Assembly (NCBI GenBank): GCA_948144175.1
Contig: CANXME010002104.1
Location: 186,001 to 250,000 of the forward strand
DNA: 64,000 nucleotides
DNA from: Closterium sp. NIES-65
Taxonomy: Eukaryota > Streptophyta > Zygnematophyceae > Desmidiales > Closteriaceae
Reading direction: 5' to 3'
A model generated the notes under the pieces. That model was given only the letters and a program-made list of their open reading frames with translations. It did no database searches and was not told the origin of the DNA. Shown piece by piece: positions 35,426-51,411 of this stretch. Numbering within the stretch: the stretch's first letter is position 1; the number at the start of each line of letters is the position of its first letter. Both the position numbers and the translations under genes were made by a program.

Positions 35426-38400
35426 GATTCGGACAGACAATCGGGGCGATCTGGGCCGTCGGATGCATACACGGCGAGCGGTCGAGATGATGACGATCAG
35501 ATGGACGATTTCGACCGCGACTCCGCAGGTGCGCGTAAACCATTCACTCTACCGCTGGTTCATAGTCGTTCTCCTCTGTCTTGCTCTCTTTCTCTTGCCA
35601 CCCCGCCGCCCCACTTCGCCTTCTCTTGCCGAAATCTGTGTTTTCTCTGCCCGATCACCTATCTGCTGCGTTCAGGTCAAGATTGAGAGGTGGAAGGGGT
35701 CGGATCCGTTCTGTATGACCGCCCGAGTGAGGTCGCGGTTGGGTCATTCTCTTTTCCGCACCCTCATTCCCCCTTCCGCCGTGACCCTTCCCCTTCCGCC
35801 GCAACCCCGTGGCAGGGCGGGAGGCGGAGGTGGCGGAGGAGGCGGAGGGGGATCCGACAACGGCAGCGAGGGCGCGGCTGGGTCATTTTTCTGTTCCGCT
35901 CCCCCCTTTCCCCCTTACGCTGTGATTCTGTGGACCCGGCGATTCTGTACCGCCGTGATCCTGTGGCAGGGCGGGAAGCGGAGGAGGCGGAGGTGGATCC
36001 GATGCTGCTCGCGCGGTTGGGTCAATTCTCTTTTCTCTTTTCTCATTTCTCATTTCCGCCGCGGGCTGTGTGGCAGGGCGGGAGGCGGAGGAGGCGGAGG
36101 TGGATCCGATGCTGCTCGAGAACGGCAGCGAGGGCGGGCGCGGTTGGGTCATTCCGCGACCCCCTTTCCCCTTTCCCTGTGATTCTTTCCCCCTTCCGCT
36201 GTGAGCCTCTGGCAGGGCGGGAAGCGGAGGAGGCGGAGGTGGATCCGATGCTGTTCGAGAACGGCAGCGAGGGCGGCGAGGGGGACGGCGCGGCGGAGCG
36301 AGCGGGCGAGGAGGAGGAAGAAGAGGGCGAGGATCTGCTGAGGGATGACTTTCTGGAGTGAGTGGGGTGGCAGAATGGCTGCTGTGGGTTGCTTGATTAG
36401 TCAAACGGGAAAGGAAGGAGTGCTTACCTGAGTGGGTTGCTTTTGAGTCGAGAGTTAGCACCTTGCAGACAGCGAGGGCGGCAGCAGGAGCAGAGAAGTG
36501 GGCCATGATGTGCCGTAAGCCGTTGCTCCCATCCCACGCTCTCAACCCTCGCCCTTCTTAACTCCACCTTGCAGCGACTACCGCCCCATGCCCCACCTGG
36601 ACGAGTACGAGAGGGAGCACCTGGCGGACAGTGAGGGCGACACCAGGAGCAGCGGGCAGCGGGCGGCAGACAGGCGGGCGGCGGAGCGAGAAATGGCGCG
36701 CCGAGACGCCGGGAGGAGGGGCGCTGGGGGGGATGATGGGGGGAACCGACTGCCGTCTATTCTGAGGGACCAAGGTGAGAATTTTGAGAATTGTGAATAG
36801 TGACTTTAACGCGCAGAGACGCCGGGAGGAGGGGTGCCGGGGGTGATGATGGGGGAAACCGGCTGCTGCCCATCGTAAAGGACCAAGGTGAGGCGGCGGA
36901 GGGGTGGGAGTGAGAAACGGGGGCAGACGAGCGGGCGGCGGAGCGAGAAATGGCGCGCAGAGACGCTAGCAGGAGGGGGCGCCGGGGGGGGATGATGCCG
37001 ACTGCCCTCCATCCTCCTCCTCAGGGACCAAGGTGAGAGTTTTGAGAATTCTCATTAGTGACTTGAGCGCACAGAGACGCCGGGAGGAGGGGCGCTGGGG
37101 GGAATGATGGGGGGAATTGACTGCCTTCCATCCTGGAAGAAGACCAGGTGGTACGGCGTAGGGGTTGGGAATAGGAGTCTTTCCTCCTTGTGTCATGTGA
37201 ACCCCTCTCCTTCCTACGTCCTGCGAATCTCTGCTCCCCATGCTCCAGACGATGACTACAGCGGGCTCTTCATTCGCAGGGCGCTGCGCCGACAACCCCT
37301 GCCCTAGCTCACAACCTGCCCCTTTTTTGTTACCACTTCTTCCTGTGACCCCCTACTCCGCATGCCCCAGACGACGACGACAGCGGGCTCTTCACCCGCA
37401 GGGGGCCGCGCCGGCGACGCACCGACTCTGCTGATGCTGCCGTGGGGGTGAGTGTGATACTCAGGTCAATGGGGGTGAGTGTGAAACTCTGGTCAATTGA
37501 CCACCTTTTGAGAAGAGTGCAGCATTAATGACTCAGACCGGATCTATCTCTGTCAGACTGGGTCTTTGTGTCAGCTGCAATCGTGCAACTGTGCTGGATC
37601 TGCACATTGTTTTAGAAATCTCAAATGTAGTATCACATCGCCCCTTTTCCTGGTCTGCTATGCATCGTGCCACTGTGCCAGTGCGTGCAACTACCATGTT
37701 CCAGTCCACTTAGAAGCCATTTCTGTCTCTCTTCATTTGAGCCCGCTTTGCATTGCGGTTTTTGAGTCAACTCAACAATCGCTTTGCATGCTGCTGTCAT
37801 CATGGCACTCCCCATGTGCACAGGGTAGCTTTGCTACGGAGGGAACGGGGGGAGGGGAGGAGGAGGAAGCGGAGGAGGAGGATGATATCAATGATGACTC
37901 GCTCTACAACATGCAGGTGATTGCATCAGTCAACAGTCTGGTGATTTTAACAGCCAGGTGTTTCCAACATGCAGGTGTTTTCGACAGTCATGTGATTTTC
38001 AGTGGGCAACTGTCAGGTAATTTCAAGAGTCAGGTGAATGCAACAGTCAGGTGTTATCACCAGGTGGTTTAACGGTCAGGTGCCAGGTGATGCAACATGG
38101 AGGAGGTGATTGCAACATGGAGGAGGGGATTGCAACAGGCACGGTGTGGGTACTTACGGCAGTAAGGTGATCTAAAAAAGAATTTATTTAGGGTCAAAGT
38201 TCGCACCTTTCACGTGCTGCTGGCTGGACCGTGCATGTGTGAAGTGCCCCGCTTGACTCTTGGTGCATGTGTGAAGTGCCCCGCTTGACTCTTGGTGCAT
38301 GTGTGAAGTGCCCCGCTTGACTCTTGGTGCATGTGTGAAGTGCCCCGCTTGACTCTTGGTGCATGTGTGAAGTGCCCCGCTTGACTCTTGGTGCATGTGT

Positions 38401-51411: not shown

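Follow-up and report, generated by a model that had tools for sequence, protein, structure and literature searches.

Partial copies of adjacent exons in the introns of MCM2 and further genes of the alga Closterium sp. NIES-65

Introduction

Closterium sp. NIES-65 is a unicellular zygnematophycean alga, and the stretch of its DNA analysed here (the window: 64,000 nucleotides, GenBank assembly GCA_948144175.1, contig CANXME010002104.1, positions 186,001 to 250,000, forward strand) contains an MCM2 gene whose introns hold many partial copies of the exons beside them. We call such a partial exon copy in an intron a ghost. An earlier note, made from the sequence alone, had counted about 45 of these copies near 18 of 21 MCM2 exons, with a largely regular polarity, and had regarded their density as a peculiarity of one essential gene. 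The genome searched comprises 874,075,685 bases in 2400 contigs; PMC10407611 gives the published NIES-65 assembly as 876 Mb, built from PacBio reads of haploid-phase cells.

Results

The MCM2 gene and its ghosts

MCM2 lies on the plus strand of the window and is intact. Its model has 20 exons, in which an ATG at 36248 is followed by 895 open residues and a stop, and its best protein match is MCM2 of Closterium sp. NIES-65, at 99% identity. Exon 1 (36216-36357) was placed from its reading frame together with the NIES-65 protein. Frame and spliced alignment gave exons 2 (36575-36774), 3 (37371-37447), 5 (38738-38891), 6 (40744-40832), 7 (41417-41547), 9 (42182-42310), 10 (42804-42938), 11 (43594-43785), 12 (44314-44486), 13 (44955-45143), 14 (45937-46053), 15 (47869-47953), 16 (48717-48839), 17 (49415-49540), 18 (50124-50306) and 19 (50962-51150), and the frame gave exons 4 (37824-37916), 8 (41780-41858) and 20 (51298-51411, including the stop codon). 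A spliced-alignment script reproduced identical exons. An additional 5' coding exon, whose end (35500-35528) is in frame with exon 1 and agrees with the NIES-65 protein P0002, brings the number to 21. The real exons are thus intact and in phase, as had been claimed.

Ghosts were sought by comparing the exons of a gene with the introns of the same gene by blastn. At E≤1e-5, MCM2 gave 56 matches, all of them same-strand and in introns next to the exon; the opposite strand and non-adjacent introns gave none. Relaxing the threshold to E≤1e-3 raised the adjacent matches to 155, many of them in an AGCATC array behind exon 14, and added three non-adjacent matches, while the opposite strand again gave none. 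With the exon 14 array removed, there were 59 ghosts at E≤1e-4, and 46 once a 13-copy array behind exon 5 was also set aside; with low-complexity masking and without both arrays the count was 45, touching 18 of the 20 modelled exons. The blastn search against MCM2 introns found no ghosts of exons 4 and 8. The number first put forward, about 45 copies at 18 of 21 exons, therefore stands, the 5' exon making up the 21. The ghosts are 76-100% identical to their source exon sequence, and among the 59 there are five stops and eight gapped copies with frame-shifting gaps.

All of the MCM2 ghosts lie on the plus strand, and their positions follow the order of the exons. The start of exon 1 is copied at 35816-35874, 35970-36011 and 36077-36137, the last being included in the NIES-65 protein model. 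Exon 2 has one upstream ghost (36445-36493) and three copies of its end (36810-36887, 36919-37015 and 37067-37135), and single copies of exon starts precede exon 3 (37249-37291) and exon 5 (38604-38661). Behind exon 5, the repeat listing and blastn together place a tandem array of 121-bp units at 38952-40477, with 13 copies of the end of that exon. Exon 7 is preceded by three copies of its start (41013-41046, 41116-41193 and 41276-41346), and exon 9 has a ghost of its start (42070-42099) and another of its end (42395-42447). The ghost of the exon 10 start (42677-42723) is identical to the exon at 47 of 47 bases, with a flank that is not clearly homologous, and three copies of the exon 10 end follow at 43023-43086, 43163-43232 and 43301-43368. 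The end of exon 11 is found again at 43853-43906, with a weaker match at 43931-43968 (E=1.6e-4). The ghost of the exon 12 start (44150-44237) shows ten silent and two replacement differences from the exon.

Exon 13 is flanked on both sides, by three upstream ghosts (44532-44606, the internal piece 44720-44746, and 44794-44887) and three downstream ones (45213-45303, 45368-45440 and 45506-45534). Copies of exon starts then precede exon 14 (45642-45675, 45748-45796 and 45848-45879), exon 15 (47450-47505, 47582-47626 and 47722-47777) and exon 16 (48083-48132, 48328-48376, 48454-48502 and 48579-48627). Exon 17 has two upstream ghosts (49207-49251 and 49307-49359) and two copies of its end (49654-49732 and 49829-49904). 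Two downstream ghosts belong to exon 18, at 50355-50441 (14 silent and no replacement differences) and 50531-50627 (15 silent and three replacement differences), two upstream ghosts to exon 19 (50712-50750 and 50819-50886), and one upstream ghost to exon 20 (51182-51254). When an exon 18 ghost was searched genome-wide at the DNA level, the matches listed comprised only the two ghosts themselves on contig C1806 and their twins on contig C637.

Two further repeats lie within the gene. The AGCATC hexamer array behind exon 14 (46104-47346, plus strand, from the repeat listing and blastn) is intronic, spans 1.2 kb and matches internal codons of exon 14, which themselves hold AGCATCAGCATCAGC; it stands outside the ghost counts above and may have grown out of an exon 14 copy. 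At the exon 16 donor, positions 48828-49182 consist of nine identical 39-bp units, each with GTACGT, so that nine equal candidate donors stand in a row.

Ghosts in other genes

An MCM-domain profile search of the genome revealed repeated profile ranges in further MCM genes. Models of MCM3 to MCM7 were built from Closterium proteins with the spliced-alignment script, those of MCM4 and MCM6 being partial. The names MCM2, MCM6 and MCM7 rest on named protein matches, and the labels MCM3, MCM4, MCM5, MCM8 and MCM9 are those that we take to apply. Ghosts accompany 15 of 18 exons in MCM3, 13 of 15 in MCM4, 10 of 18 in MCM5 and 8 of 10 in MCM6. Together, MCM2 to MCM6 hold 167 ghosts under low-complexity masking, with the MCM2 arrays removed and the arrays of the other genes kept, and ghosts occupy 13-40% of the intron sequence in the five.

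Profile searches for the second subunit of RNA polymerase and for chaperonins gave further overlapping matches in the genome, affecting 3 of 11 chaperonin and 3 of 4 multi-exon polymerase loci among the matches listed. At seven polymerase and chaperonin loci, local repeats overlie the coding matches; as these loci were picked for their overlapping profile matches, no genome-wide rate can be derived from them. Together with MCM3 to MCM6, they nevertheless show that the pattern is no peculiarity of one essential gene.

Second gene copies and other strains

The genome profile search showed the MCM genes of this assembly to be present in duplicate, as near-identical pairs. MCM2 has its second locus on contig C637, with the same ghosts as the window copy; the exon 5 array there is shorter, with 122 gap positions against the window copy, or about one unit of 121 bp. 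Similarly, one 176-bp unit of a ghost array in a polymerase gene is present in C1969 and absent from C2027, among other small differences between these copies. Duplicate gene copies thus differ by single units, and the process is therefore recent.

The earlier note had allowed that a compact second MCM2 might carry all of the expression. The genome profile search, which was not exhaustive, yielded no such gene and only the near-identical, ghost-bearing copy; the same kind of search with PF00120 did not list the window's own glutamine synthetase gene, so that claims of absence drawn from it are weak.

Ghost segments also appear in protein models, namely those of NIES-65 MCM2, NIES-64 MCM6, Naga37s-1 MCM2 and NIES-54 MCM2. 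The last three came from a word search for repeats, which misses the exon 1 ghost visible in P0002. The repeated exon 19 end in the Naga37s-1 and NIES-54 models has no counterpart among the NIES-65 ghosts.

Polarity, splice sites and spacing

Polarity was counted over 201 ghosts of the five MCM genes, arrays included (79 in MCM2, those of the exon 5 and exon 14 arrays among them). Of 80 upstream ghosts, 68 take in the start of the exon and 2 its end; of 121 downstream ghosts, 87 take in the end and 3 the start. Copies of a full exon account for only 4 of the 201. The regular polarity first described in MCM2 is thus borne out, with one exception in that gene, a copy of the exon 6 start that lies downstream of the exon (40906-40929, plus strand, blastn). 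Where ghosts align up to a splice site, the AG is kept in 39 of 47 and the GT in 56 of 59.

The free, exon-side ends of upstream ghosts are not enriched in donors: of 70 upstream ghosts, 44% have a GT nearby, compared with 46% of 370 positions taken at random in introns, and good donor scores are found at 10% of the ghost ends against 12% of random positions. This speaks against complete mini exons and against the AGGT model of intron birth, with which the earlier note had connected the copies; the ghosts span splice sites that already exist.

Flanks of ghost and exon could be compared in 141 cases, of which 53 were clearly homologous, 26 partly so and 62 not clearly aligned. Successive copies are spaced by a median of 146 bp upstream (n=79) and 148 bp downstream (n=62), or about 147 bp overall. 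Spacings of 130-160 bp make up 56 of the 141 ghost distances, compared with 6 of 99 pairs of local repeats outside the MCM genes, and the median spacing falls in that range in 34 of 83 exon-side groups, although the range may be shaped by detection limits and by the intron part required, and units within one array are not independent. The lengths of the exon part and the intron part of a copy correlate negatively, which may arise from how the two parts are measured. A nucleosomal origin of the period of about 147 bp is an attractive idea and is offered as a lead only.

Silent and replacement differences

Comparison of both copies of MCM2, MCM3 and MCM6 records the most recent changes. The real exons differ by ten silent and no replacement changes in 2248 codons, the ghosts by 14 silent and 22 replacement changes in 1940 codons, and the introns at 67 of 13,883 sites. 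Ghosts are therefore free of coding constraint at present. Between the MCM6 copies on C2128 and C21, ghosts show 15 changes in 606 codons and introns 5 changes in 2543-2832 sites, and this higher ghost divergence hints at conversion among ghosts.

Differences between ghosts and their exons have another composition. Over the 167 ghosts of the five genes, 708.5 silent and 373.5 replacement differences give a silent fraction of 0.655, ranging by gene from 0.56 (MCM5) to 0.69 (MCM6), with 203.5:109.5 in MCM2 and 124.5:56.5 in MCM6. The most purely silent ghosts belong to MCM2 exon 18 (14:0), MCM6 exon 4 (13:0) and MCM4 exon 8 (15:0), and 11 of the 167 have at least five silent and at most one replacement difference. 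Changes in which at least two ghosts agree against the exon are 53.5 silent to 6.5 replacement, compared with 157.5 to 121.5 for changes private to a single ghost. In MCM2, ghosts and exons have diverged by 17-21% in alignable flanks, 20-25% at third codon positions and about 5% at second positions.

We simulated decay in which a ghost starts identical to the exon and decays freely, the exon changing only silently, under three mutation models with 12 replicates each. The silent fractions were 0.395, 0.439 and 0.452, with a maximum of 0.487, against 0.655 observed; for MCM2 alone an extreme decay model reached 0.536 against 0.650. Plain decay from the neighbouring exon is thus not supported, as the observed differences are too silent. 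Simulated exchange within the locus gave 0.28-0.33, under settings far more diverged than the data, and 0.32-0.42, and likewise failed to reproduce the high silent fraction. A simulation in which silently diverged alleles replace the exon came nearer, at 0.53-0.62, but stayed under the observed value.

Finally, some ghosts suggest gene conversion in their exon part. Those of MCM2 exon 10 and MCM4 exon 3 are near-identical to the exon and have unalignable flanks, and one MCM6 ghost has two neighbouring codons in the state of the other ghost.

Other features of the window

On the minus strand, 53407-59466 holds a 2019-residue open frame with Copia-type RVT_2, integrase and gag-pre-integrase domains, and on the plus strand 30340-31638 holds a long open frame with a Copia-type reverse transcriptase domain (RVT_2). 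Frames at 60563-62593 (minus strand) have a zinc-finger match and a sub-threshold match to DUF4371, and are perhaps what we would label a relic of a hAT-type transposon. At 16602-20953 there are 180-bp arrays whose translation, by eye, resembles the N-terminal repeats of the Yama58-4 MCM2 model P0003; those repeats are probably an annotation fusion.

Discussion

The ghosts of several NIES-65 genes have most likely been generated by repeated short tandem duplication across exon-intron junctions. The duplications would mostly be 100-200 bp long, with a median period of about 147 bp, and would still be going on. Each would leave one full exon and one partial copy, and would be tolerated since the full exon persists. 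A copied intron end, acceptor and exon start would come to sit upstream of the real exon, and a copied exon end, donor and intron start downstream of it, so that the polarity of the ghosts follows from the geometry of junction-crossing duplication with one full exon surviving. We infer that splicing skips the partial copy, since its second splice site is missing, and the molecular cause of the duplications is inferred likewise. Units would multiply or disappear singly, and ghosts would decay like intron sequence. Tandem duplication of segments that break once within the exon had been proposed from the sequence alone, and the adjacency, strand and polarity of the copies fit it.

Several observations weigh against this explanation or limit its reach. 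As 62 of 141 flanks are not clearly aligned, those ghosts are not demonstrably junction-spanning duplications. MCM7, with 17 exons, has no ghosts at E≤1e-4, and at E≤1e-2 gives three weak adjacent matches and two on the other strand; its median intron length, 222 bp, is the shortest among the MCM genes, the others having 469-759 bp. In the glutamine synthetase gene (7900-10000, minus strand), no local repeat touching recognizable exons was found in a search of 6500-10500, in keeping with the earlier note, and the sole local repeat there (59 bp, 9694-9819) is intronic by frame reading. Furthermore, gene models of NIES-65 and of other strains (P0002, P0005 and P0122) include ghosts.

The use of ghosts in these models, the largely preserved splice sites and the silent-rich differences from the exons would all be expected if ghosts were, now or until recently, functional alternative or mini exons under purifying selection. 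However, recent ghost changes are 14 silent to 22 replacement, upstream ghosts have no donor excess at their exon-side ends, full-length copies number just 4 of 201, and the 59 MCM2 ghosts include five stops and eight copies with frame-shifting gaps; we consider this explanation improbable. Little weight also falls on an origin by break repair, in which a diverged second copy of the gene would have served as template for the insertion of ghosts, in place of tandem duplication. Such insertions would be silently diverged from birth, within-strain Ks peaks near 0.35 are given in PMC10407611, and the 62 unaligned flanks would be accounted for. Nevertheless, adjacency, strand and polarity match the prediction from tandem duplication, the flanks of 53 of 141 ghosts are clearly homologous, whole units are gained or lost in tandem, and the one ghost tested has no other source in the genome. 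That the ghosts are an assembly artefact is very improbable indeed. Repeats are hard to assemble, and our basis is assembled contigs; but identical ghosts stand on two contigs, other genes show them too, gene models from other assemblies contain them, and copies that are 76-100% identical are unlike read-error duplicates. Assembly collapse or expansion, raised as a concern by the earlier note, is accordingly unlikely.

The silent excess poses a puzzle of its own. Because ghost-exon differences are mainly silent though ghosts are now unconstrained, many ghost-exon pairs may bring together sequences from two lineages, each of which was functional during their divergence, a reading that the NIES-65 DNA brings close to an even bet, if not quite to one. 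The routes could be duplication between diverged homologues, or later replacement of the exon through recombination with a diverged allele. The complex has candidates for such lineages: according to PMC10407611, strain NIES-4550 arose by hybridization and its genes of different origin have recombined, and Ks within strains peaks near 0.35. Four results count against two-lineage descent. Every simulation stayed below 0.655; third-position divergence and flank similarity are correlated at a Spearman coefficient of -0.50, so that exon and flank largely diverge together; the silent fraction is 0.574 in single-ghost groups and 0.684 in grouped ghosts; and the two NIES-65 gene copies differ by only about 0.5%. 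The competing account, that ordinary decay and gene conversion between ghosts and exons within the gene explain everything, including the silent excess, draws on the two adjacent MCM6 codons switched to the state of the other ghost, on the near-identical ghosts with unalignable flanks (MCM2 exon 10 and MCM4 exon 3), and on the greater silent richness of grouped ghosts, which a reservoir effect might give. We think it fairly unlikely, since simulated within-locus exchange reached only 0.28-0.33 (where too diverged) and 0.32-0.42 against 0.655, and ghosts at 14:0, 13:0 and 15:0 are hard to reach by this path.

Duplication across a splice site has a precedent in the potato RdRp gene, where a tandem duplication across an intron-exon boundary gave rise to a new intron (Ma, Lan and Niu, 2016, PMC4974935). 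As here, the duplicated segment crosses an acceptor and takes in intron end and exon start, and the copy inherits splice signals; the potato case is one event in one gene, with the extra exon sequence retained and the new intron spliced (PMC4974935). In Closterium, five genes hold 167 ghosts, which lie at donors as well as acceptors and show no sign of retention in coding sequence. They are direct, adjacent copies of exon and adjoining intron sequence, with the flank clearly homologous in 53 of 141, and the intact MCM2 frame does not require them, though some gene models include one. AGGT intron gain (the Rogers model) also involves tandem duplication of exon sequence, but it duplicates an exon-internal AGGT, whereas in Closterium existing splice sites are duplicated, and a GT near the ghost end is no commoner than at random positions (44% against 46%). 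It is therefore not supported for the ghosts.

Introners are transposable elements that create introns and are present as dispersed copies of one element. Like ghosts, they affect many introns of one genome; ghosts, however, are local copies of the adjacent exon. Introners were rejected here, as MCM2 has no non-adjacent matches at E≤1e-5 and the one ghost searched genome-wide has no dispersed copies. Tandem exon duplication with mutually exclusive splicing involves whole exons. Its copies, like the ghosts, lie next to the original exon and differ from it in a coding-like way, but 4 of 201 ghosts are full-length. As to coding constraint on the ghosts, the old differences are silent-rich and the recent ones 14 silent to 22 replacement.

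Single duplications across a splice site are thus known. In the literature searched (open-licence papers only) we met no account of the Closterium pattern, with such copying at most exons of several essential genes and with units that are still gained or lost. If the genes sampled are typical, they would offer a large natural series for studying the choice of the spliceosome between closely similar exon copies, the growth of introns and the cause of duplications of about 147 bp. A practical warning also follows, in that gene models in Closterium can take ghosts as coding sequence. The excess of silent differences offers a sign of inter-lineage recombination that can be put to the test. More speculatively, and on balance rather doubtfully, the introns of a hybridizing alga might form an archive of exon versions, filled by duplication of roughly nucleosome-sized pieces (about 147 bp) at junctions of many genes and by inter-lineage recombination that swaps the working exon, with ghosts keeping silently different coding versions of other lineages. 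Were this true, introgression could be followed and dated from the ghosts of each exon, and in the course of time an exon and its ghost might exchange roles.

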